Virus record (IMG/VR): IMGVR_UViG_3300028920_000094
Span: 1-50,721 of that record
Direction: 5' to 3' (one strand)
DNA: 50,721 nt
Origin: a virus
Part shown: positions 1,333 through 49,809 of the stretch, piece after piece
How positions within the stretch are numbered: the first letter of the stretch is position 1
Layout: each line of letters starts with the position of its first letter
Made by a program: the position numbers and the translations under genes
The notes under the pieces: generated by a model
The model's database searches: none
Told to the model about the DNA's origin: nothing
The model's input: only the letters and a program-made list of their open reading frames with translations

Positions 1333-1335
1333 GCT

Positions 1336-3892: not shown

Positions 3893-3902
3893 GGAGCGCA
3901 AC

Positions 3903-6599: not shown

Positions 6600-6613
6600 G
6601 AAAGGGCTCACAC

Positions 6614-7042: not shown

Positions 7043-7063
7043 CGGATGACGCGTGACGCGTGG
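7031..7063. repeat. Heptanucleotide repeat array (TGACGCG units)
   Basis: Four to five degenerate copies of the 7-base unit TGACGCG fill the gap between two genes. They supply the stop of the upstream lipoprotein gene and end 9 bases before the next start. The same unit recurs at about a dozen places in this genome. Confidence 0.85.
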
Positions 7064-7071
7064 AGCCGCCC

Positions 7072-7599: not shown

Positions 7600-7602
7600 C
7601 CC

Positions 7603-8625: not shown

Positions 8626-8644
8626 CGCCGAGAGGAGATCCCCC

Positions 8645-9094: not shown

Positions 9095-9100
9095 AGCCCC

Positions 9101-25071: not shown

Positions 25072-25743
25072 ATGTCCCTGGCCACTCGAATCCGAACCCA
25101 GCTCGTCAAGGAGGGCCTGAGCCGGCACGTCGACGTGTTCGACCCCGCCCGCCTGCTGCCCGTGCGCGGGCGGATGCACCCCGACGGGCACGACATGCCC
25201 GACACGGCGGGCGTCTACCTCGTCCGCGGCTACCCCCGCACCGTGCAGGGCAACAGCCTCACGGGATTCATCACCGCACACCTCAAGTCCGCTGACGCCG
25301 ATGGCAGCGAACTCTACGACGACCCGGAGTTCACCTACCACGACGTGCGCGAGCTGCCGCCCCTCGATTGGGTATGGGAGCGCCGCCTCACCGCCCACGA
25401 CGAGCCCCTGCCCTGGATGTCGCTCGACGACCTCGTGGAGCCGTGGGAGGTGGACGCCCTGGTGATCGAGCGGCTCGAGGCCGAGATCGACGGGATCAAC
25501 ACAGTGATCGACGCCGACGGCACGGTGATCGGCAGGCTCCACGCCCGCATCGCAACGCTCGCCAACCTCGCCCGAGTGGGGGAGGCCGCGGTGCGGTTCG
25601 CAGGAGCCCTCGACGCCTACCACGGCGTCGAGACCGCCGAGCGCCTCGGCCTCGTCAAGCCCGAGCCCGATCCGAATCACGCGTCACGCGTCACGCGTCA
25701 CGACCCTGAGCCCACCGCACAGGAGCCCGCCGACGGTGCCTGA
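25072..25743 (+). CDS. Hypothetical protein
   Basis: 223 residues, AAAAGGAG before ATG 25072. The first 110 residues are alpha/beta (VYLVRGYPRTVQGNSL), then a helical region with coiled-coil pattern (VIERLEAEIDGINTVIDADG). The C-terminus contains the translated heptamer array (HASRVTRHD, 25674-25702). No family recognised. Overlaps the following methylase start. Confidence 0.68.
   Translation: MSLATRIRTQLVKEGLSRHVDVFDPARLLPVRGRMHPDGHDMPDTAGVYLVRGYPRTVQGNSLTGFITAHLKSADADGSELYDDPEFTYHDVRELPPLDWVWERRLTAHDEPLPWMSLDDLVEPWEVDALVIERLEAEIDGINTVIDADGTVIGRLHARIATLANLARVGEAAVRFAGALDAYHGVETAERLGLVKPEPDPNHASRVTRHDPEPTAQEPADGA
25674..25702. repeat. Heptanucleotide repeat array (coding)
   Basis: Four CGCGTCA-type units near the 3' end of the 25072 gene, read through in frame as SRVTRH. 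Confidence 0.85.
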
Positions 25744-29275: not shown

Positions 29276-30507
29276 TGGGGTATCTCGCCCGACGGCGGCG
29301 GCGTGGCCCGGATGGGCAGGTGCACGTCGACAGGAAATGGACGGCGTTCTGGCGCGACTGCCGGGGACGCCTGCACTCCGAGGCGGCCTACACGGATAAG
29401 GCATCGAGCAAGGCGCTGCTGGCCAAACGCGAGCAGGAGGCGAGGGAGGGGCGGGAGGAGTTCGGCGATCCGTTCCGCAAGTGGCGGCGTGTGCCCCTCA
29501 AGGTGCACACACAAGACTTCCTGACACATCTCGCGGCGAATGGTGTGGGCGAGGCCCACCGGGCGCACCTGGGGCAACACCTGCGGATGGCGTTCAAGGC
29601 GATGGGTGCGCGGTTCGAGGAGGAGCTGAGCCGGAACAAGGTGGAGGCGTGCCTGCTGGAGATGGTGGAGGGGGGCGGGCTGCGGTGGTCGACGCGGAAT
29701 CACAGGCTCGCGGCCATCAGCCAGTTGCTCAGGTGGGGCGTCGAGGAGGGCAGGTGGCGGTCGAACTGTGCGGAGACCATCAAGCGGCTCAAGGCCGTGG
29801 CCGACCCGGGCCGGCGGCAGCGGAGACCCCTGACGGCGGAGGAACTCGAGCGGCTGATCGTGGCGGCCAGGGAGCGGCCCGTCGTGCGGTATGCGGCGAC
29901 GCATCCGGATGCCACGGAGTGGGAGTTGGCGAGGCTGCGGCTGCTCGGCGTGCAGCGGATGTGCCTCTACACCGTCGCGGCGCTGGCAGGTCTCCGACGC
30001 AAGGAGTTGAAGGCGCTGCGGTGGGTGGACGTGCGGCTGGATGGGGGGCGTGTGCCGTGCCTGGTGGTGCGGGCGCAGGTGAGCAAGGGGAGGCGGGAGG
30101 ACATCGTGGAGCTCGCTCCCGCGGCGGTGGCTGCGTTGCGGGAGTGGAGGGAGGTGGCGGCGGCCTACTACAAGGTGGCCATCGAGCCGACGAGCAAGAT
30201 CTACGATTGCGTGACGCACGGGGCGTTGCCTGCCCTGCGGGCGGACTGCGAATATGCGGGCGTGCCCGTGGAGACGGCCGATGGGATCGTCGACCTGCAC
30301 TCGCTGCGGCACACCACCTGCACGCTGCTGTGCCGTGCGGGCGTGCCCGTGCACACGGCCCAACACGTGATGCGGCATAGGGATGCGAGGACGACGCTCG
30401 GTGTCTACGCCCACGTGCAGGCTCAGGACAGGGCCGATGCGGTGGCGAGGCTGCCGCTGCTCGGCCTCGTCGCCGGCCAGCAATCGGCGCGTGAGAGGGA
30501 GCAGTGA
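29275..30507 (+). CDS. int: Tyrosine recombinase (integrase)
   Basis: 410 residues, AGAGGAG seven bases before ATG 29275. The N-terminal basic region (LARRRRRG) and SAM-like domain (residues about 70-165) are followed by the catalytic domain. Catalytic Arg is in AGLRRKE (about residue 240), HSLRHT gives H342 and R345, a second His is near 367, and Y378 lies in GVYAHV. It integrates phage DNA by site-specific recombination. The attP directly downstream carries the 3' part of a tRNA gene, so the target is a tRNA gene. The catalytic region has the style of GC-rich environmental bacterial integrases. Confidence 0.93.
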   Translation: MGYLARRRRRGPDGQVHVDRKWTAFWRDCRGRLHSEAAYTDKASSKALLAKREQEAREGREEFGDPFRKWRRVPLKVHTQDFLTHLAANGVGEAHRAHLGQHLRMAFKAMGARFEEELSRNKVEACLLEMVEGGGLRWSTRNHRLAAISQLLRWGVEEGRWRSNCAETIKRLKAVADPGRRQRRPLTAEELERLIVAARERPVVRYAATHPDATEWELARLRLLGVQRMCLYTVAALAGLRRKELKALRWVDVRLDGGRVPCLVVRAQVSKGRREDIVELAPAAVAALREWREVAAAYYKVAIEPTSKIYDCVTHGALPALRADCEYAGVPVETADGIVDLHSLRHTTCTLLCRAGVPVHTAQHVMRHRDARTTLGVYAHVQAQDRADAVARLPLLGLVAGQQSAREREQ

Positions 30508-31012: not shown

Positions 31013-31474
31013 ATGAAATCTGAGCACCTCCTACCCACCCAAAAGGCGGTCGCTGCCCACTACGCGGTGACTAGCCGCACGGTGCGAAACTGGCGCGCCG
31101 CGGGGATGCCCGTGCGCGAGGACGGCCACTACGACATCCGCGCCATCGACGCCTGGCTCCGCATCCGCGATGTCCCCGGCGGCTCCGACCTCAAGCTCCT
31201 CGGCGACGAGGCGCAGCTCGAGTACCGCCGCACAAAGACCGCACTCCTCAAGTTGCAGCTCGCCGTCAAGGAGGGTGAGCTCATCCGCCGCGAGGACGTG
31301 GACGCCCGCCGCGCACGCCAACTCGCCGCCGTCAAATCCGCCCTCCTCCGCATCCCGCGCGACGTATCCGTCCGCCTCCTCGGCCTCACCCGCGTCGACA
31401 TCGAACGCATCCTCACGCAATCGATCCGTGAAGCCATCGAGCACTTGGCCAATGGCCGCAACGCCACAACCTGA
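31013..31474 (+). CDS. Terminase small subunit
   Basis: 153 residues, ATG 31013 preceded by GGGGAG. N-terminal winged HTH (TQKAVAAHYAVTSRTVRNWRAAG, residues about 7-30) recognises the packaging site; residues 60-110 are helical (LGDEAQLEYRRTKTALLKLQLAVKEGEL), the Nu1 dimerisation and gpA-binding pattern. It overlaps the large subunit by 23 bases. The Nu1-type small subunit fits cos packaging. Confidence 0.85.
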   Translation: MKSEHLLPTQKAVAAHYAVTSRTVRNWRAAGMPVREDGHYDIRAIDAWLRIRDVPGGSDLKLLGDEAQLEYRRTKTALLKLQLAVKEGELIRREDVDARRARQLAAVKSALLRIPRDVSVRLLGLTRVDIERILTQSIREAIEHLANGRNATT

Positions 31475-33524
31475 CCTCTTCTCGCCCATCGAACTCGAGG
31501 CCCTCAGGCTCGACGAGGAACTCACCATCCCCGAGTGGATGGACCGCTACCTCTATCTCCCCCGCGAGGACCACCCGCAGGCCGGCCCGTACCACACAAA
31601 CCGCACACCCTACGCCCGCGGCATCGGCGAAACCATCTCCGACCCCACCACCACCATCATCGACTGGGTCGCATCCCGCCAGGTCGGCAAAACCGTAATG
31701 ATGACAGGCGTCGACGGCTTCTACTGCGACCAACAACCCACCCCCATCCTCCACACCATGCCCACCGAGGACGCCGTCAAGGCCTACGCCGACAACCGAT
31801 TCCGCCACCACGTCGAGCAGTCCGAGGGATTCCAGCGCAACGTCCCCGCCTCCCGCAACGCCATGCGCGGGATGATCAAGCAATTCGTCTCCAACTCCCT
31901 CTACTTCGCCTGGGCGGGCTCCATCGCCAGCGTCGTCTCCACCCCCATCGGCGTCTGCATCCTCGACGAGCTCGACCTCTACCCCGCATCCGCCGAAGGC
32001 CAGGTCGACCCCGCCGAAGCCGCCATCGAGACCACGACCAACTTCCCCGGGCGCAAAATCATCCGCGCCTCCACCCCATCCCTCGCATCCACCGGCATCT
32101 GGCAAGCCTTCCTCACCAGCCTCCAACACCTCTTCTTCGTCCCCTGCCCCCACTGCGGCCGCTACCAGGTCCTCACCTTCCGAGGCACCCGCGAGGGCAA
32201 GGACGCCGAGCGCCTCGGCGAACACTACGGCGTCACCTGGCCCGCCGACTGCCGCGACCGACACCGCATCGCCGCAGAGCAGCTCGCGTGGTACGAATGC
32301 CGCTACTGCGCAGGTCGCATCCCAAACCACCAAAAGCCCTGGCTCCTCCTCCGCGGCCTCTGGCTCCCCATCATCCAGGATAGGAAAAACCCGTATGCCT
32401 GGGACGACACCCTTGCCCAGGAATTCCTCTCCCTCTACGCCAAGCCCATCGCCGACGCCTGCGCCAGCGACACCCCCTCCGCCATCCTCGGCGGCCGCAC
32501 CGCGCACCATGCCCGCCGCCTCCTCGACCCCGACGGCACCATCGAATGGGCCGACCCCTGGTCCACCCACGTCGGATTCCGCCTCGACGGCCTCTACTCG
32601 CCCTTCGACGGACGGTCATGGTGGGCATTCGCCGCCAAGTTCCTCGAGACCAAAGAATTCCCCATCCAGCTCAAAGTCTTCCGCCAGCACTGGCAGGGCC
32701 TCCCCTGGCTCCAGAAAACCATCGAACTCTCCGACGAGCTGCTCCGAAAATACATCGGCACCCACACCATGGGCGTCGTGCCCAAGGGCACCCGCGTCCT
32801 CACCGCAGGCGTCGACGTACACGACTACCGATACGTCCTCGGCGTCTACGGCTGGGGCGACGACGACCGCCTCCCCCTCATCTACTGCACCGAGGTCGAC
32901 ACCTGGGACGCCGTGGTCGAAGTCCTCTTCCGCTCCGCATGGTCCATCGAACAGGCCACACCAGACACACTCCACGTCACCATGGCCTTCGTCGACACAG
33001 GCTGGAACACCGCGGTCGAATACGACCACGTCCGCGAGTGGCCCGACCGCTGCCGAGCCATCAAAGGGGTGACGGGCACCGCCATGGCCGGAGCCCCCTG
33101 GCGCATCCGCAAAATCGAGCACAGCCCCCACACAGGCAAACCCTACCCCGGCGGCCTCCCCCTCGTCCTACTCAACGTCGATATGCTCAAGGACGAGCTC
33201 GTCCTCCGCCGCCTCACCGTCGACCCTGGCCAGCCCGGCAGCGTCATCTTCCCCGTCGACGTCCCGGACTGGTGGCTCGCCGGCCTCACCGCCGAGCAGA
33301 AAGTGCCGCACGTCAACCGCCGCACAGGCCAGGCCACCGAAGAATGGATCGTCGTCGACGGGAAACCGAACCACCCCCTCGACGCCACGGTCTACGGTTT
33401 GGCCGCAGGGAACTTCATCGGCGCCACCCGCCTCCGCCCCGGCACCCAGCCCCCCCGACAGACCCACCACGCACGCACCCGCCGCCCCTGGCACGGCGTC
33501 CGAAAGCAAAAGAGGAGACGATGA
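31452..33524 (+). CDS. Terminase large subunit (gpA family)
   Basis: 690 residues. ATPase: adenine/Walker A region ASRQVGKT at residues about 73-80, Walker B ILDELDLYP at about 169-177 with the catalytic Glu. Two CXXC knuckles (CPHCGR near 231, CRYCAG near 284) fit the lambda gpA-type zinc region. Nuclease part: AGVDVHDY near 451, VDTGW and PLDATVY later, giving the acidic triad pattern of RNase H-like terminase nucleases. Packages DNA and cuts at cos. ATG 31452 gives the expected length. The last residues are basic and Arg-rich. Confidence 0.92.
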   Translation: MAATPQPDLFSPIELEALRLDEELTIPEWMDRYLYLPREDHPQAGPYHTNRTPYARGIGETISDPTTTIIDWVASRQVGKTVMMTGVDGFYCDQQPTPILHTMPTEDAVKAYADNRFRHHVEQSEGFQRNVPASRNAMRGMIKQFVSNSLYFAWAGSIASVVSTPIGVCILDELDLYPASAEGQVDPAEAAIETTTNFPGRKIIRASTPSLASTGIWQAFLTSLQHLFFVPCPHCGRYQVLTFRGTREGKDAERLGEHYGVTWPADCRDRHRIAAEQLAWYECRYCAGRIPNHQKPWLLLRGLWLPIIQDRKNPYAWDDTLAQEFLSLYAKPIADACASDTPSAILGGRTAHHARRLLDPDGTIEWADPWSTHVGFRLDGLYSPFDGRSWWAFAAKFLETKEFPIQLKVFRQHWQGLPWLQKTIELSDELLRKYIGTHTMGVVPKGTRVLTAGVDVHDYRYVLGVYGWGDDDRLPLIYCTEVDTWDAVVEVLFRSAWSIEQATPDTLHVTMAFVDTGWNTAVEYDHVREWPDRCRAIKGVTGTAMAGAPWRIRKIEHSPHTGKPYPGGLPLVLLNVDMLKDELVLRRLTVDPGQPGSVIFPVDVPDWWLAGLTAEQKVPHVNRRTGQATEEWIVVDGKPNHPLDATVYGLAAGNFIGATRLRPGTQPPRQTHHARTRRPWHGVRKQKRRR

Positions 33525-35411: not shown

Positions 35412-36539
35412 ATGAACAAGGTCACCGACCTCATGCTCCTCCCCCGTGCCTCCGACGGATGGCTCATGGGCGAAGAATGCTGCTGGCAGCGAAAGTCGCC
35501 ATGGACCCCCTTCTTGCCCCTCATCGCCGCCTCGGCCTGGGGGATCCCCATCGAGCCCTGGGACGTCGACGGCGACCAACAGGCCGCCGCCGACCTCAAC
35601 CACACCATGGTATTCTCCGCCAGCTTCGCCGACGAGCTCGAAGCCTCCCTCGCCCGAATCCCACACGCATCCCTCATCCCCAACCCCGCATGTGCCTTCG
35701 AGCACCTCGCACGCCGAATCCCACACCACTCCACCGTCCTGCCCAACGCATTCTACCGCGACACCCCGCTCGACCTCTCCCTCATCCCCGACGACCTCTG
35801 GCCCACCTTCACCCACATCCTCTACCAGGTCAGCACAGGATGCCCCTGGCACTGCCCGTTCTGCGTGTGGCAAAACAGCCTCCACAAACGCCCGCCCGCC
35901 CTCTGCGTCCGCGAAATCGACGCCCTGCTCGAGCGCGTCCCCGCCGCCGCCGCCGACACCTCGGGCAACTCCATCTCCATCCTCGCCAACGAGCTCAGCG
36001 GCCGCCCCCGATGGCTCGCCGAGTTCGCAGCAGGGATGCACGACCTCCATGTCGCCTGGCGCACCGACCTCAACATCCGAAACACTACCGAGCGCACCAT
36101 CGCAACCCTCGCCTGTGCAGGCTGCCGCCACGTCACCCTCGGCGTCGAGTTCCTCACCACCTCAATGCTCCACACGCTCGGCAAAGGCCACGACATCGAG
36201 GACGCCCTGCTCGTGATGGCCATGCTCCAGGCCGCAGGCATCGGCTACCACTTCAGCCTCCGCCAAGGCGTCGGCGAGACCGTCGCCGACCTCACGGAGA
36301 TGGGCGACAACCTCCAGTTCTTCGCGGCGGAGGGCATCCGCCCCGAATGGGTCCACGTCGGACACATGATCCAGTGGCAGGGCCAGACCTGGCTCGGCGA
36401 CACCCCGAAACGCAACATCGGCACCGAGGCCTGGCCCCGCCACACCGCTATCCTCGCCCCCGACATCCACGCCGCCTGGCAGAAGATCGTCGGCCTCCTC
36501 GCCACCCTCGGCTGGGCCAAAGCCCAGCGCGACGCGTGA
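35412..36539 (+). CDS. Radical SAM protein
   Basis: 375 residues, ATG 35412 after AAAGGA. C144, C148 and C151 form STGCPWHCPFC, the CX3CX2C iron-sulfur and SAM-binding motif. Downstream strands and helices (ILANELSGRP, WRTDLNIR, ITLGVEFLTTSMLHTLGKGHD) fit the partial TIM barrel, with the GVEF segment in place of the usual GIES. The first 140 residues have a Rossmann-like pattern, so a class B (cobalamin-binding-like) arrangement is possible, without a clear cobalamin motif. The substrate is unknown. In this phage it could modify DNA, a protein or a virion sugar. Confidence 0.78.
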   Translation: MNKVTDLMLLPRASDGWLMGEECCWQRKSPWTPFLPLIAASAWGIPIEPWDVDGDQQAAADLNHTMVFSASFADELEASLARIPHASLIPNPACAFEHLARRIPHHSTVLPNAFYRDTPLDLSLIPDDLWPTFTHILYQVSTGCPWHCPFCVWQNSLHKRPPALCVREIDALLERVPAAAADTSGNSISILANELSGRPRWLAEFAAGMHDLHVAWRTDLNIRNTTERTIATLACAGCRHVTLGVEFLTTSMLHTLGKGHDIEDALLVMAMLQAAGIGYHFSLRQGVGETVADLTEMGDNLQFFAAEGIRPEWVHVGHMIQWQGQTWLGDTPKRNIGTEAWPRHTAILAPDIHAAWQKIVGLLATLGWAKAQRDA

Positions 36540-37904: not shown

Positions 37905-38114
37905 TTGGCCTTCACCGCAGCCGACATCACGACTATCGAGACCGCCATCACATCCACCATCACCTCCGGCGGCGTCCGTCGCATCACGGTAGGTGGACGC
38001 ACCGTCGAGTTCCGCTCCGCATCCGACCTGTTCGAGCTCCTCAACCTCGTCCGCCGCGAGGTCTACGCCTCGACCAACGCCGTCACGAAGGCCGATCTCA
38101 GGAACCGCCCGTGA
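37905..38114 (+). CDS. gpW-like head-tail joining protein
   Basis: 69 residues. TTG 37905 is chosen: AGGAG lies nine bases upstream, and the resulting start (M)AFTAADI is the usual opening of this family. The ATG at 37878 sits directly behind a hairpin with no ribosome site. The sequence has the short helix-strand-strand-helix of gpW (VRRITVGGRTVEFRSASDLFELL). Lies immediately before the portal, as gpW-like proteins do in lambda-type order. It binds the portal ring and helps tail attachment. Confidence 0.75.
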   Translation: MAFTAADITTIETAITSTITSGGVRRITVGGRTVEFRSASDLFELLNLVRREVYASTNAVTKADLRNRP

Positions 38115-39652
38115 GCCGGCAGAGGCACCACACCCACCGCAAAGCCCACCACGAGCCCCTCCACAAGAGGCTCGACACAGTGATCCAGCACTACTTCCCC
38201 GCCTGGGCATTCAACCGCGAGCAGGCACGCGTCCGCGCCGGCCTCGCCCGCCGCGCACGCGAGGGCATGGAACGCCGACGCCGCGCCAAGGGAGCCTCCC
38301 ACTACCAGGACGCACGCTCCGGCCGCCTCAACCGCCGCCGATCCTCACGCGGCGGCTCCGCCGACAGCCACGCCACCCAGAGCATCCTGTTCACGCTCCG
38401 CGAAAACGTCCGACACCTCGTCGACAACTCGACCCTCGCCGAGGGCCTGCTCCAGACCGACTGCGACAACGTGATCGGCCGCGAGCCCATGCCCCAGGCG
38501 CAGACCGCCGACGCCGAATGGAACCGCGAGGCCGAGAAGGTCTGGCACAACGAGCCGCTCGACGTGCGGGGCATCCTCCCCAACTCCGAGTTCCTGCGGA
38601 TGCTCTACACCTCCGTCCGACGCGACGGCGACCTCGCACTAATCAAGAGCGACGGGCGGTTCCAGGCCCTCGAGGCCGAGTTCATCGCCACACCCACCAA
38701 GTACGGCACCGACGACGCCGTGGTCAACGGCATCCGGTTCGACGACATCGGGCGGCCGATCGAGTACTACATCGCCACCGAGCACCCCACCTCCGCCTAC
38801 GTGAATAAGACGACCACGCGCCCCGCCGAGGACGTCATCCACATCTTCCGCCCCGGCAGATTCTCCGCCTCCCGAGGCGTCCCCATCCTCGCAAAAGTGA
38901 TCGACGAGATCGACCGCCTCAACGACTATGTCGAAGCCACCGTGATCGCGGCGCAGATGGCCGCCTGCTACGCCATCGTCCGCAAAACCTCCTACTGGCC
39001 TGAAAAGCGCGGCAACGCCAAGACCAACGACGACACGGGCGACAGCGAACGATGGGAAGAAGTCGAGCCGGGCATGATCCTCTATGCCCATCCCGACGAG
39101 GAAGTGCAGCAGCTCAATCCGAACCACCCCAACCAGCAGTTCGAGACCCTCGTCGACACCCTCTGCCGATTCACGGGCCGCCACATGGGCCTCCCCCTCG
39201 AGCTCGTGTTGCTGAACTTCTCGCACTCGAACTTCTCAAACACCCGCGCCGCCCTGCTCCAGGCGCAGCGGACGTTCGAGAACACACAGCACTGGCTCGA
39301 CAGCGGCGTGTTCCGCCAGATGTGGGGCTACAGCACGGAGCACGCGATCCGACGCGGATGGCTCCAGCCCCACCCCGAGGCGGCCAAGGTCCACTTCGTC
39401 ATGCCGGGCTGGCCGTGGGTCGACCCCCTCAAGGACATCCAGGCCGACATCCTTGCCCTCGCCAACGGCCTCCGCTCCCCGCAGCAGGTCGCCTCCAAAT
39501 GGGGCGTGGACGCCGAGACCGTCATCGAGCAGGTCGCCCTCTACCGCGAGATGCTCGCACGCTACGGCGTCGAAATCGAATACACACTCCGCCCCGGCAC
39601 ACAGGCCGCAGGCGGCGACGATAAAGACGAGCCCGAGGAGAGCAAGGAATGA
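38111..39652 (+). CDS. Portal protein (lambda gpB type)
   Basis: 513 residues, GTG start overlapping the previous stop. Basic N-terminal part (residues 1-75), followed by the portal core: VDNSTLAEGLLQT, WHNEPLDVRG, DGDLALIKSDGRF, HIFRPGRFSASRGVP, LDDY-like DRLNDYVEA, and FNFSH-like LNFSHSNFSNTRAALLQAQRTF near residue 385. A Gly/Asp/Glu-rich acidic tail ends it. Forms the dodecameric vertex through which DNA enters. Matches the gpA-type terminase upstream. Confidence 0.9.
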   Translation: MSRQRHHTHRKAHHEPLHKRLDTVIQHYFPAWAFNREQARVRAGLARRAREGMERRRRAKGASHYQDARSGRLNRRRSSRGGSADSHATQSILFTLRENVRHLVDNSTLAEGLLQTDCDNVIGREPMPQAQTADAEWNREAEKVWHNEPLDVRGILPNSEFLRMLYTSVRRDGDLALIKSDGRFQALEAEFIATPTKYGTDDAVVNGIRFDDIGRPIEYYIATEHPTSAYVNKTTTRPAEDVIHIFRPGRFSASRGVPILAKVIDEIDRLNDYVEATVIAAQMAACYAIVRKTSYWPEKRGNAKTNDDTGDSERWEEVEPGMILYAHPDEEVQQLNPNHPNQQFETLVDTLCRFTGRHMGLPLELVLLNFSHSNFSNTRAALLQAQRTFENTQHWLDSGVFRQMWGYSTEHAIRRGWLQPHPEAAKVHFVMPGWPWVDPLKDIQADILALANGLRSPQQVASKWGVDAETVIEQVALYREMLARYGVEIEYTLRPGTQAAGGDDKDEPEESKE

Positions 39653-41040
39653 ACCACGCTGCCGCCATCTTCGCCCGCCCGTGGGCAATGGAGCCGACGC
39701 GTCTGCTCGACTTCGCCGCCCGCATCCTCCACGGCGGCTCTGCCACCATCCTCCAGCTCGACAAGCTGCCCGACATCCAGCAACTCGGCTACGACCTCAC
39801 CGCAGGCGTCGCCACCATCGCCATGAGCGGAATCTTCATCAAGGGCGGCGACCCCATCCTCGAACGATGGGGCCTCGGCATCATCGACACCGAGCAGGTG
39901 GCCGCCGCCATCGACGACGCCCTCGCCGACGACGCGGTCGAGCGGATCCTCCTCTCCATCGACAGCCCTGGCGGCGATGCCGCAGGCGTCGAAGCTCTCG
40001 GCGACAAGGTCTACGAAGCATCGAAGATCAAGCCCATCGACGCCCACATCGCAGACATCGGGGCCTCCGCCGCCTACTGGATCGCATCCCAGGCACGCAC
40101 CATCACCGCCAACGCCACCGCCACTGTAGGCTCCATCGGCGTGTATATGACGATCTGGGACACAAGCAAGGCGGCAGAAGACGACGGCCTGAAGGTCTAT
40201 CTCATCGCATCAGGCCCCCTCAAGGGCCAGGGCTCCACGGGCGTGCCCGTCAGCCAGGAAGCCATCGACGAGTGGCAGGGCATCATCGACGGAATGGCCG
40301 GCTACTTCGTCAAGGCCGTCGCCCGCGGCCGCCGAACCACGCAAAAGGCCATCCGACAGCTTGCAACGGGAGCCGCCTGGCTCGCCGAGGACGCCAAGGC
40401 CAACGGCCTCATCGACGCCGTCGGCCACCTATCCACAGCACTCCAATCGCCGGGGCGGCTCCGCCGCTCGTCGGCGGAAACCCCCCGACAGGAGGAACCG
40501 ACCATGGCAGACGAGACCGACAAGATGACGCCCGAGGCCCTGCGCGAGCAGTTCGCCGACGCCGTCAAGGACATCGAGGGCAAGGCCAGCGCCAAGGCGA
40601 TGGAGCACACCGGCGACATCCTCCGCGCCCAGCTCGCGGAGTTCGGCGAGACCTTCGCCGAGGACCCCAAGTTCGCCATCGACCGCTTCGTCGCCGGCGA
40701 CACACTCGCCGAGGCCAAGGCCGCCTACGCCGACGTGCTCAAGGTCCGCCTCGCAGACGAGGCCGAGGCCCGCAAGGCCGTCGAGGCACAGCTCGCCGAG
40801 CGCGACAAGCTCGTGCCCCAGACCCACACCGACAAGCAGAAGACCGACGCCGAGGTCGAGGCCGACAAGAAGAAGGCCGAGACCGAGGCCAAGGGCGCGC
40901 CGTCCACATGGGAGGAAGCCATCGCCCTCGTCCTCACCGAGCTCGGCAAGGCCAGCCTCGCAGGCAAGGATCTCCTCGCCGCCCGCACCGAGGCCGCCAA
41001 GATCGCCCGCAACCGCTTCCCCGACTGCCTCGGGAAGTAA
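39649..41040 (+). CDS. S49-family head maturation protease with fused scaffold
   Basis: 463 residues. Residues about 55-240 are a SppA/S49 (ClpP-fold) domain: SIDSPGGDA, DIGASAAYWIAS with nucleophile Ser140, and NATATVGSIGVY. The last 178 residues are acidic, helical and Ala/Glu/Lys-rich, typical of scaffold. A nested start at 40504 would express this part alone (see the scaffold entry), as in lambda C/Nu3. The protease cleaves scaffold and probably other head proteins. Confidence 0.88.
   Translation: MNHAAAIFARPWAMEPTRLLDFAARILHGGSATILQLDKLPDIQQLGYDLTAGVATIAMSGIFIKGGDPILERWGLGIIDTEQVAAAIDDALADDAVERILLSIDSPGGDAAGVEALGDKVYEASKIKPIDAHIADIGASAAYWIASQARTITANATATVGSIGVYMTIWDTSKAAEDDGLKVYLIASGPLKGQGSTGVPVSQEAIDEWQGIIDGMAGYFVKAVARGRRTTQKAIRQLATGAAWLAEDAKANGLIDAVGHLSTALQSPGRLRRSSAETPRQEEPTMADETDKMTPEALREQFADAVKDIEGKASAKAMEHTGDILRAQLAEFGETFAEDPKFAIDRFVAGDTLAEAKAAYADVLKVRLADEAEARKAVEAQLAERDKLVPQTHTDKQKTDAEVEADKKKAETEAKGAPSTWEEAIALVLTELGKASLAGKDLLAARTEAAKIARNRFPDCLGK
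40504..41040 (+). CDS. Nested scaffold protein (Nu3-like)
   Basis: 178 residues in frame with the protease gene, starting at ATG 40504 with AGGAGG nine bases upstream (a strong, in-frame internal site). Helical, acidic, with coiled coil (LRAQLAEFGETFAED, EARKAVEAQLAERDKL). This is the layout of lambda C/Nu3: the protease carries a scaffold C-terminus, and free scaffold is made from the internal start. Confidence 0.75.
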   Translation: MADETDKMTPEALREQFADAVKDIEGKASAKAMEHTGDILRAQLAEFGETFAEDPKFAIDRFVAGDTLAEAKAAYADVLKVRLADEAEARKAVEAQLAERDKLVPQTHTDKQKTDAEVEADKKKAETEAKGAPSTWEEAIALVLTELGKASLAGKDLLAARTEAAKIARNRFPDCLGK

Positions 41041-41061: not shown

Positions 41062-42078
41062 GTGTTCGACGCCGCTTTCTTCTACGCCAAGCCGCCCTTC
41101 CGCTCGACAGGCTTGAGCAACAACACCCGGCAGTGTGCCGCAGTCCTCAACGAGGAAGGCTACCGTGCCATCGCAATGTGCCTCACCGACCTGCCCCGCT
41201 CCGACGGCAGCCAAGGCCCGCACATCTGGGGTCCCTGGATGGCAGAGCACGCGCCCCGCATGGTCGTCGTCTCCGCTCTCTGCACACCGCCCGAAGACCT
41301 CGAAGCCCTCGCGCGCAAGTTCCGCGACACCATCTGGGTGCAGCGCATCCACAGCAACCTCGCCTGGCTCTTCCAGAGCGGCGACTTCTACAAGACCATG
41401 CAGGTGCTCGAAATGAGCCGCCGCCTCCCCAACGTCAAGCTCGCATTCGTCTCTCCCTACGAGAGCGCACGCCTCCACGGCGCCGGCCTCCACAACGTCG
41501 TCTGCATGCCCAACGTCACCGTTGCCCCCGTCGCCGACACGCCGCGCCGAGGACCCGCAAGGAACCGCAGGGTCGAGCTGTCCGCCATCTTCGCCGTCCG
41601 ACTGCTCAAGCACCCTTCGGGTCACGTCCTCGCCTCTGCCCTGGTCAACGCCCGCCGCCGAGCCTGCCTCCACATGCAGTTCACACGCACCGATCATCGG
41701 CACTACAACGAACGGTGCAAGATGTTCGCCAACGCGTGCCAGCTCCCCCTCGTCGAGGAGCCCTACCGCGACCACGCGGACTTCTGCGCCTGGCTCGGCT
41801 CGAGCATCCACGTCGGGCTCCAGCTCTCCATGACGGAGAGTTTCAACTACGTGGCGGTCGAGCACATGAGCGAGGGGATCCCCGTCGTCGCATCCGAGGC
41901 GATCCCATTCGTCCCCTGGCGCGTCCGCTACGAGGACAGCCAGGCCGCCGCCGATACCGTGCTCGACATCCTCGCCGACTACCGCGGCGCGAGCCAATGC
42001 GCCCTCGACGCCGCCCGCACCATCCGCGACCGCAACCGCTCCCTCTACCTCGAAACCTGCCAAGCCCTGCTCAATTAG
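41062..42078 (+). CDS. Glycosyltransferase, GT-B fold
   Basis: 338 residues, GTG start. GT4-like pattern: N-terminal GLSNNTRQCAAVLNEEG, middle IWVQRIHSNLAWL, and C-terminal TESFNYVAVEHMSEGIPVVAS with the E-x7-E arrangement that binds nucleotide sugar. It would transfer a sugar from a nucleotide sugar. It lies between scaffold and decoration protein, so a virion protein is the likely acceptor (inference). Confidence 0.8.
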   Translation: MFDAAFFYAKPPFRSTGLSNNTRQCAAVLNEEGYRAIAMCLTDLPRSDGSQGPHIWGPWMAEHAPRMVVVSALCTPPEDLEALARKFRDTIWVQRIHSNLAWLFQSGDFYKTMQVLEMSRRLPNVKLAFVSPYESARLHGAGLHNVVCMPNVTVAPVADTPRRGPARNRRVELSAIFAVRLLKHPSGHVLASALVNARRRACLHMQFTRTDHRHYNERCKMFANACQLPLVEEPYRDHADFCAWLGSSIHVGLQLSMTESFNYVAVEHMSEGIPVVASEAIPFVPWRVRYEDSQAAADTVLDILADYRGASQCALDAARTIRDRNRSLYLETCQALLN

Positions 42079-42088
42079 GGGACCTTCA

Positions 42089-42511
42089 ATGGCCAGCCAG
42101 ACCGTGCGAACCTTCACCCGAGTGGTCGGAGGCGAGGAGACCCTCGCCCGGTACCGCCTCGTGCGGCGCGAATCCGCCACGTCCTCCGACGTGATCTTCA
42201 TGGAGGCCACCGCCACCTACGTCCCCATCGGCGTCATCCAGGCCGGCGACAACTCGTCCTACGTCGTCGGCTCCGAGGTCGCCGTCCAGGACTTCAAGGC
42301 CGGGGGCACGCAGAAAGTCGAGGCCGCCGGCGCCATCGTCGACGGCGCCTTCATCTACGCCGCCGCCGACGGCAGGGTGCAGGCACTCCCCGCCGCCGCG
42401 GGCACCTACCTCCGCGTGGGCATCGCCTTCGAGGCCGCCACGGGCGCGGGCTCGATCTTCGAAGCGTGGCTCGACCCCAGCGGCACCACCGAGACCGTCA
42501 CCGGCTCCTGA
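42089..42511 (+). CDS. Capsid decoration / stabilisation protein
   Basis: 140 residues, ATG 42089. The position between protease-scaffold and major capsid and the beta-rich sequence (Gly/Ala-rich, GAIVDGAFIYAAADGRVQALP) fit DUF2190- or gpD-type decoration proteins that cement the mature shell. A glycosyltransferase gene precedes it, so it is a candidate glycan acceptor. Confidence 0.75.
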   Translation: MASQTVRTFTRVVGGEETLARYRLVRRESATSSDVIFMEATATYVPIGVIQAGDNSSYVVGSEVAVQDFKAGGTQKVEAAGAIVDGAFIYAAADGRVQALPAAAGTYLRVGIAFEAATGAGSIFEAWLDPSGTTETVTGS

Positions 42512-42604
42512 CCCCCGACGTGGCCCGATTGACAACCTGAGCCCGTCGAGGCCCGGCCAGGCCACCAGCGGCGACCCTAGACGCCGCCGACGGGAGCACC
42601 GATA

Positions 42605-42645
42605 GGGCGGTGCGAGCTCGAAAGAGCTCCACCGCCCTTTTTTTT
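42605..42645 (+). terminator. Rho-independent terminator before the major capsid gene
   Basis: Stem GGGCGGTG/CACCGCCC plus inner GAGCTC/GAGCTC with a GAAA tetraloop and one bulge, followed by eight T (42638-42645). Textbook form. Partial read-through would set the ratio of head proteins. Confidence 0.88.
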
Positions 42646-42671
42646 GCCACCCCTTGCCGAGGAGAACTCAA

Positions 42672-43631
42672 ATGGCCGAGCTCGCACCCGACAATGTTCG
42701 CCCGCGACGCGACATCCAGGACTGCCTCCGCGAGTTCCTGATGACGCGCCCCTTCATCGGCCTCAAGCTCTTCCCGCTCTTCCCCGTGGATCAGAAGACG
42801 GGCTATTACCCGATGATCCCCACCGAGTCGATGCTCAAGCTCCCCGAATCCATCGAGCGCGCGCCCAAGGCCGCCTACGGCCGCATCGACTGGAACTGGA
42901 CGACCGACAACTACGCCTGCAAGGAATACGGCGTCGAGCAGCCCGTCGACGAGGTGCAGGCCGCCGAGACGGAGAGCTTCTTCGACCTCGAGGAGGAGGC
43001 AGGCCGCACGGTGAGCGACATCGTGCTCCGAATGCAGGAGCAGCGGATCCTCACCATGTGCCAGGTCGCCGCCAACTGGGGCAACACCGGCGCCGTCGCC
43101 GCCGCATGGGATGTGCCCGCCGCTGCCGTGCCAATCACGGACATCCACGCCGCGCGCCTCGTCATCCGCGCCGCCACGGGCCTCCTGCCCGATACGCTCG
43201 TCGTCGGGCGCGACACCTTCCAGTGGTTCACGCTCTGCGACCAGATCACCGACCGCATCCAGTACACCTACCCCGGCATGGACCGCGGCGACTACACCGC
43301 CGAGCTCATCGCCAAGATGCTCGGCCTCCGCCAGGTGCTCATCGCCGACGCCGTCTACGACACCACCGACGAGGGCCAGGCGTCCACCATCGACGACATG
43401 TGGGACGACGACTTCGCCTTCCTCTGCAAGGTCGCCGAGAACCCGAGCCGCCTCCGCGAGCCCTGCATCGGCAGGACGTTCCTGTGGGAGAGGGACAGCG
43501 CCGAGAACCTCGTGTTCGAGAGCTACGCCGAACCGCAGACCCGCAGCGAGATCGTGAGGGCTCGCCACCACACCGACGAGGAGATCGTCCTGGCCAACTG
43601 TGGCTACCTCTTCACCGGCTGCAACACGTAG
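42672..43631 (+). CDS. Major capsid protein
   Basis: 319 residues, ATG 42672 after GAGGAG. Middle-sized head protein with the gpE-like pattern: PFIGLKLFP, IPTESMLKLPESIE, RVDWNW-like RIDWNWTTDN, VVGRDTF, and a C-terminal RTFLWERDSAENLVFESY with NCGYLFTGC at the end. Order after decoration protein and before connectors matches lambda-type heads. It carries its own ribosome site and lies behind a terminator. The likely HK97-fold shell subunit. Confidence 0.85.
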   Translation: MAELAPDNVRPRRDIQDCLREFLMTRPFIGLKLFPLFPVDQKTGYYPMIPTESMLKLPESIERAPKAAYGRIDWNWTTDNYACKEYGVEQPVDEVQAAETESFFDLEEEAGRTVSDIVLRMQEQRILTMCQVAANWGNTGAVAAAWDVPAAAVPITDIHAARLVIRAATGLLPDTLVVGRDTFQWFTLCDQITDRIQYTYPGMDRGDYTAELIAKMLGLRQVLIADAVYDTTDEGQASTIDDMWDDDFAFLCKVAENPSRLREPCIGRTFLWERDSAENLVFESYAEPQTRSEIVRARHHTDEEIVLANCGYLFTGCNT

Positions 43632-43654
43632 CCTTCGCCGCCGCGCCGCACGAG

Positions 43655-43690
43655 CCCGGGGAGAGGGGCCGCTCCTCCCCTCTCCCCGGG
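43655..43690 (+). promoter_or_regulatory. Long perfect hairpin after the major capsid gene
   Basis: CCCGGGGAGAGGGG (43655-43668) pairs over 14 bp with CCCCTCTCCCCGGG (43677-43690), loop of 8. No T-tract follows. It could stabilise the capsid mRNA 3' end or act as a partial terminator that lowers expression of the following glycosyl genes. Confidence 0.6.
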
Positions 43691-43704
43691 CGGGGGCCGA
43701 AACG

Positions 43705-44415
43705 ATGCCACGATTCCTGATCGCAACGCCAAACTACAACCGGCCCGACCTGCTCCGCAGGACGGCCGAATCCTTCGTCCGCCTCTACGGCTCACCCGCC
43801 GACGGCGACTACCGCTGGGTGCTCATCGACGACGATTCCGACGCCGAAACCTGCCAGACCATCAACGCGATACAGGCGGAGCTCGGCTGCTGGTTCCAGG
43901 TCGTCAACACCACGGGCACCCGCGCCGTCATGGCCTGCTTCAACCTCCTCTATGCCAACCAGCCAGAGCCCTACCGCGTCTACATGGAATCGGACTACGA
44001 GTGGCTCCTCCCAGGCTGGCTCGACTACGCCGCCGACATCCTCCAGGCCGACCCCCGCGTCGGCGAGGTCCTCACCGAGCACCTGCCCGGCGTCCTCGCA
44101 CGCAACGAGGCCGCAGGCCACTTCGTCTCCGCCGAGGAGGCCCAACCCCACCCATACCTCCGCACCTGGACCCCTGGCTTCTGGTGCAACCGCTTCGGCC
44201 AGTTCAGTATGCGGGTGCACATGGCACGCCCCGGCCTGCTCCGCGAGCTCCGCCCTTTCCCGCACATCCGAAACCGAGGGATGGAGCCCCACATAGGCCG
44301 CTACTTCCACAGCCTCGGCTGGCAGGTCGCACACCCCCTCCAGACCTACGCCGACCACATCGGCAAGGGCAACCCCGCCGTCCCCTACGCCAACATGGGG
44401 GGCAACCCCCGATGA
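43705..44415 (+). CDS. Glycosyltransferase family 2-like
   Basis: 236 residues, ATG 43705. N-terminal FLIATPNYNRPDLLRRTAESF, LIDDDSDAETCQTI and a DXD-like ESDYEWLLPG segment place it with GT-A type inverting transferases. The C-terminal 100 residues include RFGQFSMRVHMARPGLL. The acceptor is unknown; the cassette of five genes (43705-47076 plus 41062) suggests glycan decoration of the virion. Confidence 0.78.
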   Translation: MPRFLIATPNYNRPDLLRRTAESFVRLYGSPADGDYRWVLIDDDSDAETCQTINAIQAELGCWFQVVNTTGTRAVMACFNLLYANQPEPYRVYMESDYEWLLPGWLDYAADILQADPRVGEVLTEHLPGVLARNEAAGHFVSAEEAQPHPYLRTWTPGFWCNRFGQFSMRVHMARPGLLRELRPFPHIRNRGMEPHIGRYFHSLGWQVAHPLQTYADHIGKGNPAVPYANMGGNPR

Positions 44416-45452
44416 AGGCTCTCATCACAGGCTCGTGCGGGCTCATCGGCTCCGAAGCCGCCCGATTCTACCTCGCCCAGGGCTGGGAGGTCGTCGGCGT
44501 CGACAACGATGCCCGCCGCAGATTCTTCGGCGACGACGCCTCCACCCTCCCCGTCCGCGCTCAGCTCGAGGCCATCCCAGGCTACACCCACATCGCCGCC
44601 GACATCCGGGGCATGCAGCGGGCATTCGCCGACCACGGCCCCTTCGCACTCATCGCCCACGCCGCGGCCCAGCCCTCCCACGACTGGGCCCGCGACCACG
44701 TGCTCGAGGACTTCACGACCAACGCCTGGGGAACCGTGTTCCTCCTCGACCAGGCTCACCGCCACTGCCCCGAAGCCCCCTTCGTGTTCCTCAGCACGAA
44801 CAAGGTCTACGGCGATGCGCCCAACCGCCTCCCCACGGTCGAGCTCGCCACCCGCTACGCCCTCAAGCCACCCCACGAGCACGGCATCAGCGAGCAAATG
44901 TCCATCGACGCCAGCCTCCACTCCTTCTTCGGCTGCTCGAAGGCCGCCGCCGACCTCTACGTCCAGGAGTACGCCCAGACGTTCGGCATGCGCACGGCCT
45001 GCTTCCGGTGCGGATGCCTGACCGGACCTGCCCACAGAGGCGCAGAACTGCACGGATTCCTGTCCTACCTCGTGCACTGCGTCGTCACGGGCAAGCCCTA
45101 CACGATCTACGGCTACGGCGGCAAGCAGGTCCGCGACCAGCTCCACGCCGCCGACCTCGTCGCCGCCATCGAGTGCTTCCGAGCCCGCCCCATCCACGGA
45201 GGGCCGGTCTACAACCTCGGCGGGGGCCCGGGCAACTCCATCTCCGTCCTCGAGGCCATCGGCCGCGCCGAAAAGCTCGCGGGCAAGCACCTCGACTTCA
45301 CGCTCGACCCCACCCCCCGCCTCGGCGACCACCGCTGCTACTACTCCGACACCACGCAGTTCGAGTGCTACTACGACTGGCACGTCGAGCACCGCATCCA
45401 CGACATCCTGGCCGAGATGGTCGCCGCCGAACAGGAGCGCGCCCCGTGCTAG
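44412..45452 (+). CDS. NAD-dependent epimerase, tyvelose/paratose type
   Basis: 346 residues, ATGA overlap. GSCGLIGSE at the N-terminus is the NAD-binding Gly-rich loop. LSTNKVYGDAPNRLP, SMSIDASLHSFFGCSKAAAD and FRCGCLTGPAHRGAELHGFLSYLV are hallmark segments of CDP-paratose 2-epimerase/tyvelose epimerase-like SDRs. The Tyr of YxxxK is Phe in FFGCSK, also seen in that family as I recall it. It probably makes a deoxyhexose nucleotide sugar for the phage glycosyltransferases. Confidence 0.82.
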   Translation: MKALITGSCGLIGSEAARFYLAQGWEVVGVDNDARRRFFGDDASTLPVRAQLEAIPGYTHIAADIRGMQRAFADHGPFALIAHAAAQPSHDWARDHVLEDFTTNAWGTVFLLDQAHRHCPEAPFVFLSTNKVYGDAPNRLPTVELATRYALKPPHEHGISEQMSIDASLHSFFGCSKAAADLYVQEYAQTFGMRTACFRCGCLTGPAHRGAELHGFLSYLVHCVVTGKPYTIYGYGGKQVRDQLHAADLVAAIECFRARPIHGGPVYNLGGGPGNSISVLEAIGRAEKLAGKHLDFTLDPTPRLGDHRCYYSDTTQFECYYDWHVEHRIHDILAEMVAAEQERAPC

Positions 45453-46180
45453 ACCCCGCCACCATCAAGGACCCCGGCCTCGTCGGACCCATCCTCGACG
45501 ACCTCGCGGCCTACACGGGCATCCCCCGCGCCCGCTGCCGCGAGCTCAGCACCCGCAGCCCCAACCAGCCCCACCGCTCATGGGTCGCGTGGGACCCCAC
45601 GTCGCGTCCCGAGCTCGCCTGGTACTACCGCACCACCGCCGCCTACGTGTTCGCCCTCTGCGACCCCCGATGGTGCCACCCCCTCGACCTCCTCGCCGGC
45701 CTCGACGCCGAGGGCAACCCGCCCGTCGCCCTCGACGTGGGAGCGGGCATCGGCACCGACGCCCTCTACCTCGCCCAACGCGGCTGCCTCGTCTTCTACT
45801 CCGATCCGAACCACTGGAACCGAGAGTTCGCACGCTGCCGATACCAGCGCCACCGCGACGACATCCCCGGCGTCGTGAACTTCGATACCGACCCCCCCGA
45901 GGTCGACGTGCTCATCGCCGTCGACGTGCTCGAGCACATCCCCGACTACCCCCGCGTGCTCCGCGAGCAATGGCTGCCACGCGTCAAGCGCAGCGGCCAC
46001 TTCCTCTACTCCGCGCCATTCTGCCGGGCACCCGGCCTGCCCGACAACGTGGGGCTCCACGTCAACCAAACCGAGCCCATCCCCGACATCCTCGCCGAGG
46101 CCGGCTTCCGCTGCGTCAAGCGCATCGCAGGCACCCCCGACCCCACGGGCGACGCCCACTGGCACTGGATCCGCAACTGA
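45446..46180 (+). CDS. SAM-dependent methyltransferase
   Basis: 244 residues, GTG overlapping the previous stop. Class I motif ALDVGAGIGTDALYLA (motif I) at about residues 90-105, and DVLEHIPDYPRVL (motif III-like) about 50 residues later. It lies in the glycan cassette, so the likely substrate is a sugar. Start upstream of VLDPATIKDPG. Confidence 0.82.
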   Translation: MLDPATIKDPGLVGPILDDLAAYTGIPRARCRELSTRSPNQPHRSWVAWDPTSRPELAWYYRTTAAYVFALCDPRWCHPLDLLAGLDAEGNPPVALDVGAGIGTDALYLAQRGCLVFYSDPNHWNREFARCRYQRHRDDIPGVVNFDTDPPEVDVLIAVDVLEHIPDYPRVLREQWLPRVKRSGHFLYSAPFCRAPGLPDNVGLHVNQTEPIPDILAEAGFRCVKRIAGTPDPTGDAHWHWIRN

Positions 46181-47076
46181 TGAACATCGTGCTCCTCCAA
46201 CTCTACCACACCACCGCCGCCGTGGCGGCACTCCGCGCCCTCGGCCACAACGTCGCCGCCGTCAACTTCCGCCACGACACCCTCCCCGGCGACCGTGCCC
46301 TCCGATGGGCGGACCTCCTCATCGTCCAGCAGGGCGACCTCCTCCACCCCCCAGGCTGCCTCCCCACCGCACTCGTCGAGCGAGCCCGCGCACGCGGCTG
46401 CCACACCATCTGGTGGACCTACGACCCGCCCGAGACCAAACGCCCCATCTACGGCGACTTCGCCCGCCACTTCGACCAGCTCGTCGTGTGCACCGAGGCC
46501 GACCGCGACCACTTCGCCCGCCTCGGCTGCAACGTCCGCATCGACTACGCCGGCGCCGACCCCGGCTTCTGGCGGCCCACCAACCTCAAGCCCCCCGAGT
46601 TCGCCGCCCACGGCGCTCCCGCCGGCCTGTTCGGACACCTCTACCCCCACAGGCAGCAGGCCATCCGAATGCTCCTCGACGCCGGCATCCCCACCGCCTG
46701 CTGGGGCATCGGCAACGGCTCGTGGCCGTGGCTCGACCAGCAGCGGATCCGCTGCCAGTTCCACGCCACAACCGTCAACGTCATCCTCCCCTGGCACGGA
46801 CCCTCCGGCCTCGACCCCGAATACCTCATCCTCCGCCACTGGCAGATCCCCATGTGCGGAGGCTTCGCCATCGCCGAGCACAACCGAGCCGTGGACAGGG
46901 AATTCCCCGACATGCCGGTGTTCTCCACCCTCGACCACATGGTCGAGTTGGTCAAATGGCATCTCGACCGCCCCCGGCGCCGGGCCGCCAGCATCGAAGC
47001 CTGCCGAGCCCGAGCACGCCAGAAGTTCACGCTCAAGGCCTTCTACCAGCGAATGCTCGAGGGGGTGCCGTCGTGA
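46180..47076 (+). CDS. Glycosyltransferase (CgeB-like)
   Basis: 298 residues, TGATG overlap with the methyltransferase. WWTYDPPETKRPIYGDF, FDQLVVCTEADR and GADPGFWRP, followed by GLFGHLYPHRQQAIRMLLDAGI, resemble the CgeB/YkvP-type GT-B glycosyltransferases. Catalytic contacts are not assigned. Last gene of the glycan cassette, overlapping the head-tail connector start. Confidence 0.75.
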   Translation: MNIVLLQLYHTTAAVAALRALGHNVAAVNFRHDTLPGDRALRWADLLIVQQGDLLHPPGCLPTALVERARARGCHTIWWTYDPPETKRPIYGDFARHFDQLVVCTEADRDHFARLGCNVRIDYAGADPGFWRPTNLKPPEFAAHGAPAGLFGHLYPHRQQAIRMLLDAGIPTACWGIGNGSWPWLDQQRIRCQFHATTVNVILPWHGPSGLDPEYLILRHWQIPMCGGFAIAEHNRAVDREFPDMPVFSTLDHMVELVKWHLDRPRRRAASIEACRARARQKFTLKAFYQRMLEGVPS

Positions 47077-47429
47077 GCGTCTTCGACGATGCCTTCGCCG
47101 CCGCACGCACCGCCGCGATGGACTACATGGGCACCACCGTCACCTACACCCCCAAGGGCGGCTCGGCCTCCGAAATCACCGCCATCCCCGACCTGCTCGA
47201 CACCGACCGCGACGAGGACGAGCACGGCTCCGCCGACGTGCAGAGCATCAACATCGACATCTCCCTCGCCGACGTGGCCAGCCCCGCCACCGGCGACACG
47301 GTGGCCATCGACGGCGTGGACTACACGGTGGCCGCGGTCCGCGACAAGGCCGCAGGCATGGCCACCCTCGAGTGCCGCCGCGTCGACCGCGTGCAGCACG
47401 CCCGCTCCGGATGGAGGGCAGACCTGTGA
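47073..47429 (+). CDS. Head-tail connector (gpFII-like)
   Basis: 118 residues, GTG overlapping the previous stop. SVFDDAFAAARTAAMDYMGTTVTYTP and a beta core with SLADVASPATGDTVAIDGVDYTV are typical of lambda FII-like and related connectors that seal the portal to the tail. Small size and place support this. Confidence 0.8.
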   Translation: MSVFDDAFAAARTAAMDYMGTTVTYTPKGGSASEITAIPDLLDTDRDEDEHGSADVQSINIDISLADVASPATGDTVAIDGVDYTVAAVRDKAAGMATLECRRVDRVQHARSGWRADL

Positions 47430-48654: not shown

Positions 48655-49809
48655 ATGAGCCGCCGCATCCTCACCGCCCTCGCCCTCCTGCTGATCTGTG
48701 CGGGGGCGGTGCGCGCCACCGAGGCCTGGCGCGATGCCGACTGCTCCTACCGCCGCGCCATTACCATCGACAACTCGAACATGGGCTCGACCACCCTGAG
48801 CAACTTCACCGTCCTCGTGAAGATCACCGACACGCACCAGATCGACAAGGACAAAATCGCGGACGGGCAATACACGTTCTGGGATTCGTCGGGGAACGAA
48901 CTCGACTTCGAGAACGAGGCATACAGCGAAGGCGCCAACTATGTGAACATGGAGACGTGGGTCGAGACGCAATCGCTCAACGGCGACGGCAACTCCGCGA
49001 CCGACGACACGATCTGGATCTACTACTCCCACTCGGGGGGCGACCAAGACGACGGCACCGGCGCGTGGGACGCGGACGGCAACTGGCGCGCGGTGTGGCA
49101 TCTGTCCGACAGCAGCGGGGGCGCTGACGACAGCACAAGCAACAGCAATGACCTCTCAGAAAGCGGCACCGTCAACTACTCGCAGACAGGCCAGATCGCC
49201 GACGCCGTGGACCTGCCCGGCACCGACGACTACCTGAGCCGTGCCGACGATGCCGACTTCGATTTCGCCGCAGGCTTCAGCCTGCACGCCTGGGCAGAGC
49301 CGGACGCCACCGACGCCGCCACGCGGATCTTCTACAGGTACGATGCCACGAGCATGGATGGCTATTTTCTTGCACAGAGCCCGACGCATACGGGCTACTG
49401 GCGGTTCACCGTATTGTACTCGCCGACCTACGACGGGTGCTACAGCGACGCCGCCCCCACGGGTAGCTGGGAGCACGTCGTCGGCGTCCGTGAGGCCGAT
49501 GGCACGCTCAAGATGTACTGCGACGGATCGGTACAGGCGGACACGGGGAGCAAGGCGGGCGCCATCGATACCAACGGCGTCTTCTATGTCGGCTGCGACT
49601 TCGTGCAGGCCTCGGACTACAACGGCAGCCTGGACGAGCTGCGCGTGAGCGGCACCGCCCGCAGCGCCGACTGGATCGCCTTCGAGCACGCCAACGGCGG
49701 CGGCGAGGCCGACAACGAACTGACCGTGGCCGCCGAGGAGAGCAAGCCCGCAGCCGGCGGCGCCGTCCCCCAACTCATGCACCAATACAGGCTCAGGAGA
49801 TCAGGCTGA
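48655..49809 (+). CDS. DUF2341 and LamG-domain surface protein
   Basis: 384 residues. Signal peptide (LTALALLLICAGAVRA). Residues about 25-115 match the DUF2341 pattern (YRRAITIDNSN, VLVKITDT, YTFWDSSGNELDFE), and residues 150-335 form a LamG/concanavalin-like jelly roll (SLHAWAEPDATDAATRIF, YDGCYSD, NGSLDELRVSG). Such modules bind carbohydrate. On the virion they would be adhesins; the signal peptide makes export equally possible. It overlaps the following fibre-like gene. Confidence 0.78.
   Translation: MSRRILTALALLLICAGAVRATEAWRDADCSYRRAITIDNSNMGSTTLSNFTVLVKITDTHQIDKDKIADGQYTFWDSSGNELDFENEAYSEGANYVNMETWVETQSLNGDGNSATDDTIWIYYSHSGGDQDDGTGAWDADGNWRAVWHLSDSSGGADDSTSNSNDLSESGTVNYSQTGQIADAVDLPGTDDYLSRADDADFDFAAGFSLHAWAEPDATDAATRIFYRYDATSMDGYFLAQSPTHTGYWRFTVLYSPTYDGCYSDAAPTGSWEHVVGVREADGTLKMYCDGSVQADTGSKAGAIDTNGVFYVGCDFVQASDYNGSLDELRVSGTARSADWIAFEHANGGGEADNELTVAAEESKPAAGGAVPQLMHQYRLRRSG

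Follow-up and report, generated by a model that had tools for sequence, protein, structure and literature searches.

Putative virion-glycosylation genes in the head module of an uncultured phage and similar enzymes beside the head genes of unrelated phages

Analysis of the complete record IMGVR_UViG_3300028920_000094 (50,721 bases, hereafter the window) identified a set of sugar-enzyme genes in the head module of a phage, which probably, though by no means certainly, form a virion-glycosylation cassette kept in this module and serving to glycosylate the phage's own head proteins. This reading builds on the identities of the genes, their order and overlaps, a terminator and a hairpin located between them, and the recurrence of similar gene sets beside the head genes of unrelated phages. 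Glycosylation of the capsid or decoration protein, put forward in the original prediction from the sequence of the window, remains the best reading and is partly supported overall; it is strengthened by the comparative data, since the head operons of unrelated, uncultured phages repeatedly contain enzyme sets of a similar kind.

All predicted genes of the window are on the plus strand, and the 3'-most one is incomplete, being truncated by the end of the record. The phage is temperate, judging from its tyrosine integrase gene (Table 1). The order of the head genes is as follows: terminase large subunit, small genes, radical SAM protein, portal, S49 protease, GT-B glycosyltransferase, decoration protein, major capsid protein (MCP), GT2-like glycosyltransferase, SDR, methyltransferase, CgeB-like glycosyltransferase and head-tail connector, with one enzyme gene between the protease and the decoration protein and four between the MCP and the connector. 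The position (41062-47076) and gene order of the cassette had been predicted correctly, and so had the coupling of the last four enzyme genes by overlaps with the connector directly after them: GT2 and SDR overlap by 4 nt, SDR and methyltransferase by 7 nt, methyltransferase and CgeB by 1 nt, and CgeB and connector by 4 nt. GC3 is 0.88-0.94 and is the same in the enzyme genes and the head genes, so by this measure the cassette does not resemble a recent insertion of foreign DNA; with a strong codon-position GC signal in every one of them, the cassette and head ORFs are real genes. The C-terminal part of the protease is probably scaffold-like, as it is long and charged.

Table 1. Features of the window and the fusion enzyme family of the compared contigs
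Feature	Position	Strand	Evidence
Tyrosine integrase	29320..30507	+	PF00589 1.8e-16
Terminase large subunit, lambda gpA type	31452..33524	+	PF05876 9e-45, PF20454 2e-44; PHROG 15 7e-123
Radical SAM protein, CPWHCPFC motif, between terminase and portal	35412..36539	+	PF04055 1e-7
Portal protein, lambda family	38111..39652	+	PF05136 1e-62
S49 head maturation protease	39649..41040	+	PF01343 5.5e-30; PHROG 53 1e-65
Probable GT-B (GT4-like) glycosyltransferase, E-x7-E motif ESFNYVAVE	41062..42078	+	Sub-threshold profiles, motif
DUF2190-type decoration/cement protein, Ser/Thr-rich C-terminal tail DPSGTTETVTGS	42089..42511	+	PF09956, PHROG 673, alignment with relatives
Strong intrinsic terminator between decoration protein and MCP, bulged stem, T8 tail at 42638	42603..42645	+	-30.9 kcal/mol
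Major capsid protein (MCP)	42672..43631	+	PHROG 1005 5.6e-45; TBLASTN to annotated MCPs
Perfect 15-bp hairpin without U-tract between MCP and GT2	43654..43691	+	-36.2 kcal/mol, z -4.3
GT2-like (GT-A) glycosyltransferase	43705..44415	+	PF00535 6e-5
TyvE-like SDR (nucleotide-sugar epimerase/dehydratase superfamily), Phe for the Tyr of YxxxK	44412..45452	+	PF01370 2e-32
Class I SAM methyltransferase	45446..46180	+	PF13489 3e-9
CgeB-like GT-B glycosyltransferase	46180..47076	+	PF13524 2e-7, over cut-off
Head-tail connector (FII/Hc1)	47073..47429	+	PF05354 7e-15; NF049848 over cut-off; PHROG 82
Methyltransferase-GT-A fusion family	L106-L159, e.g. L117:7995-9122 (IMGVR_UViG_3300044645_001094)		Conserved a short distance downstream of MCP

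The first enzyme gene does lie between the scaffold-like region and the decoration gene, as predicted, while its identity as a GT-B enzyme rests on sub-threshold matches and the E-x7-E motif. Its matches to glycosyltransferases in Pfam, PHROG and NCBIfam range from 4e-4 to 0.008, the best score against the Pfam Glycos_transf_1 type is 18.4 bits with a cut-off of 26, and a single-sequence structure model with pLDDT 35 does not confirm the fold. The GT2 protein passes the curated cut-off of PF00535 marginally (23.4 versus 23.3 bits). TBLASTN searches of phages with the window GT2, methyltransferase, CgeB-like and GT-B proteins found no relatives, nor did these four have detectable relatives in the compared loci; the CgeB-like family was found in the comparison set, besides the window, in G008 only.

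The SDR resembles CDP-tyvelose 2-epimerase over the full length: this enzyme is its best solved relative (1orr, 1.6e-36, residues 2-326), and the motifs STNKVYGD and GCSK are common to both (1orr, 9rl0). Unlike the epimerase, the window protein reads HSFFGCSK, with Phe173 in place of the catalytic Tyr of YxxxK. Hence the predicted tyvelose/paratose-type epimerase stands as a likeness and fails at the catalytic Tyr, and assignment to the CDP-tyvelose/paratose 2-epimerase family was rejected for this replacement. The Tyr is likewise replaced by Phe in the relative from a huge phage and in six relatives from bacteria, which were found without that motif.

The original prediction assumed co-transcription of the cassette with the head genes and mentioned neither the terminator nor the hairpin. 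As it turns out, transcription would be interrupted between the decoration and MCP genes by the strong terminator, and the hairpin is located between MCP and GT2. The terminator is the strongest of such sites in the window (z of the surrounding fold, -6.3); it was found by a T-run script, whereas a promoter/terminator scanner missed its bulged stem. Its presence within late head genes implies that the terminator is read through or overcome by antitermination, or that MCP has a promoter of its own. Both structures probably act as 3' ends that would lift the decoration and MCP messages above those of the enzymes, and the enzyme transcripts would be supplied by read-through or antitermination.

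The decoration protein matches PF09956 (Phage_cement_2) slightly below the cut-off (3e-4) and PHROG 673 at 6e-10; DUF2190-type decoration proteins are located on the capsid surface. Ser and Thr make up 35% of its last 20 residues. Flanked by a glycosyltransferase gene, belonging to a capsid-surface protein type and having this tail, the decoration protein appears to be a good acceptor candidate, although these features are suggestive only. A C-terminal glycan site of the mycobacteriophage kind was considered and not retained: the MCP tail is not Ser/Thr rich, and the decoration tail, which is, remains suggestive.

No close relative of the window phage was found among viral contigs using 8-mers of MCP, terminase, GT2 and SDR, or among phages using megablast. 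In the inspected head region of distant phages with the same MCP type, for example Chromohalobacter phage YPCBV-1 and Pseudomonas phage KPP23, no gene is annotated as a sugar enzyme. Scanning with an SDR family motif that demanded the Phe yielded 68 viral contigs. In many of them, including larger ones, the SDR lies within long sugar-gene clusters away from the terminase, and the same family is also part of ordinary sugar clusters in bacteria and other phages; the SDR alone is therefore no pointer to the capsid. For example, the SDR of the huge phage LR745206 is 44% identical to that of the window and has methyltransferases and glycosyltransferase-like genes nearby, but it sits in a long sugar cluster, whereas the window SDR sits among head genes.

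A cassette located among host-surface genes in related phages had been named as the case that would speak against capsid glycosylation. The long sugar clusters came up when this case was looked for, but in seven further viral lineages the SDR is in or beside the head genes: between protease and MCP in L106, L107 and L108/L109, which have HK97-type heads; just after MCP in L085; and immediately 5' of the terminase, in the same orientation, in L160, L161 and L034, accompanied in L160 and L161 by GT2 and methyltransferase genes. Judging by their portal, terminase and MCP families, most of the compared head modules are unrelated to that of the window and to one another. A single capsid clade of SDRs was not established: the tree needs two changes, there may nevertheless have been one origin, and the window and several other rows form long branches. 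L107, which has both the SDR and the fusion enzyme described below, also carries a second GT2-type gene (L107:10141-10785) directly 3' of a head completion gene.

In the contigs with HK97-type heads, the MCP gene is followed by a small decoration-like gene, then by a gene encoding a methyltransferase fused to a GT-A-like domain, and then by the connector. The motifs used to search for this fusion enzyme lie within its methyltransferase domain, and hence the search does not favor capsid neighbors; it identified 54 viral contigs forming 25 clusters at 80% identity. Of the 54 contigs, 48, representing 23 of the 25 clusters, have a detected MCP gene 5' of the fusion gene and in the same orientation, at a median distance of 1.06 kb, and the connector is usually next after the fusion gene. 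Five of the six remaining contigs extend only a short way upstream of the fusion gene, and in the sixth, L133, an MCP is recognized by profile. In L135, L141, L143 and L159, the fusion gene is present on both sides of the connector.

The DxD motif is invariant in the fusion enzyme, and its structure model (pLDDT 86) consists of a methyltransferase domain and a glycosyltransferase domain. The best structural match of the predicted glycosyltransferase domain is STIV A197 (Z 19.5, 2.1 A over 162 residues), further matches being human LH3 (Z 18.3), mimivirus R699 and COLGALT1; LH3 and COLGALT1 are glycosyltransferases acting on collagen. In sequenced phages (cyanophages, a marine virus and a huge phage), only the FkbM part and a short methyltransferase stretch of the fusion match, and by these searches the sequenced isolates covered essentially lack the enzyme. 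The full-length enzyme had no match at 1e-40 in 398 Pseudomonadota genomes, in a search run without a positive control.

The window GT2 shows no homology to the fusion enzyme, and the window methyltransferase has a weak local match only (hhalign E 0.0026, probability 11.5%); by these comparisons neither they nor the CgeB-like protein are homologous to it in a useful sense. What recurs, apart from the SDR, is thus enzyme type and place rather than orthology, which, at the level of sequence, points to convergence and not to one conserved system. It is about an even call whether a widespread and so far undescribed system of the head module is common to uncultured tailed phages from many head lineages; in this system, GT-A enzymes encoded beside MCP and often fused to a methyltransferase, sometimes together with a nucleotide-sugar SDR, would glycosylate the capsid during assembly, and the window would be one multi-enzyme example.

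For the phage of the window we infer which protein is modified, with which sugar, in which order of steps and to what benefit, as follows. Late in infection, transferases and enzymes that tailor sugars would be produced from the phage's own genes; the SDR would alter a host nucleotide sugar; a transferase would put a sugar on one of the head proteins, the decoration protein and MCP being the likeliest; other transferases would lengthen the glycan; and the methyltransferase would cap or modify it. Operon order and translational coupling would link the supply of enzymes to head assembly. A methylated deoxyhexose as the product, also proposed originally, is a guess.

To our knowledge, glycosylated capsids have been shown among tailed bacterial phages only in a few mycobacteriophages. 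It is true, as predicted, that capsid glycosylation is rarely documented, while two papers provide a direct mycobacteriophage precedent (PMC11256854, PMC11600133). Virions of Che8, Rita and cluster O phages are glycosylated by several phage glycosyltransferases (Freeman et al. 2023, via PMC11256854, PMC11600133), and in Che8-type phages both capsid and tail tube are modified (PMC11256854, PMC11600133). In cluster O phages, an O-methyltransferase gene adjoins three glycosyltransferase genes (PMC11600133). Like the window phage, Che8 is a tailed phage encoding several glycosyltransferases; its genes 108-110, however, map to 56-59 kb and are separated by about 50 kb from MCP gene 6, directly after which comes the connector, whereas the window cassette lies between protease and connector and adds an SDR. 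The Che8 gp108-110 proteins had no phmmer match, up to E 10, to the window proteins or the fusion enzyme.

A197 is an essential glycosyltransferase of STIV, whose MCP is glycosylated, and this viral GT-A enzyme is thought to act on the virus's own capsid protein, MCP B345 (PMC10551542). STIV differs in being an archaeal virus of an unrelated type with a single glycosyltransferase and a host-supplied donor, and A197 matches the fusion enzyme of the compared phages, not a window protein. The literature searched, which was open-access and left most subscription journals outside, contained no description of a head-module glycosylation cassette. Virion glycosylation itself is already known; new here is that the genes are located in the head module, that the phage supplies its own SDR and that similar sets recur across many head lineages of uncultured phages.

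The enzymes could also act on targets other than the head. The late genes run on past the connector into tail and appendage genes, and the tail tube, too, is modified in Che8-type phages (PMC11600133); a tail or fiber protein, such as the LamG protein at 48655 or the protein at 49809, might thus be the target, the head location being historical. We consider this unlikely, as the fusion enzyme tracks MCP/decoration and connector genes in 23 of the 25 clusters of the comparison set. It is improbable as well that the cassette remodels O-antigen, capsule or teichoic acid on the host surface, in a lysogen or late in infection, to block superinfection. Such a role would suit a temperate phage and an SDR family that also occurs in the long sugar-gene clusters of many viral contigs, but lysogenic-conversion genes are normally separate from the late head operon, whereas the cassette genes overlap one another and the connector gene, and profiles detected no flippase/GtrA or Gtr-type membrane transferase among the cassette products, in contrast to a gtr cassette.

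Phage glycosyltransferases often have DNA as the substrate, the window contains two DNA methyltransferase-like genes (10024-11442 and 25736-27565), and one GT2 of L160 has a weak, sub-threshold match to a TET-associated glycosyltransferase. Nevertheless, hypermodification of phage DNA with sugars seems very improbable: no gene for a hydroxymethylase, a TET/JBP protein or another base-modifying enzyme turned up near the cassette, the cassette is located among head genes, and protein glycosyltransferases are among the closest folds of the fusion enzyme.

If glycosylation of head proteins is indeed the role of these genes, capsid glycosylation would be common beyond mycobacteriophages, given the conserved MCP-adjacent sugar enzymes in many unrelated uncultured phages, and it would have escaped notice because the sequenced isolates covered by the searches essentially lack the fusion enzyme. 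Gene order would then be a simple test for spotting glycosylated phages, and the cassettes would be a source of compact enzymes to sugar-coat protein shells. The presence of similar enzymes in the same place in dozens of uncultured phages with unrelated shells suggests that many phages may build and sugar-coat their own shells.

Several other genes of the window deserve mention. The radical SAM protein encoded between terminase and portal has distant relatives near the SDR in L160 and L034 and may belong to the sugar pathway. The LamG/concanavalin-like protein (48655-49809), encoded 3' of the connector genes, is a possible appendage or glycan-binding virion protein. Ten genes tested in the region 1-9976 (132-469 aa) had no PHROG match in nine cases and a marginal one in the tenth. 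In the longer DNA methyltransferase-like gene (609 aa), an apparent large insertion separates the two halves of the family profile.
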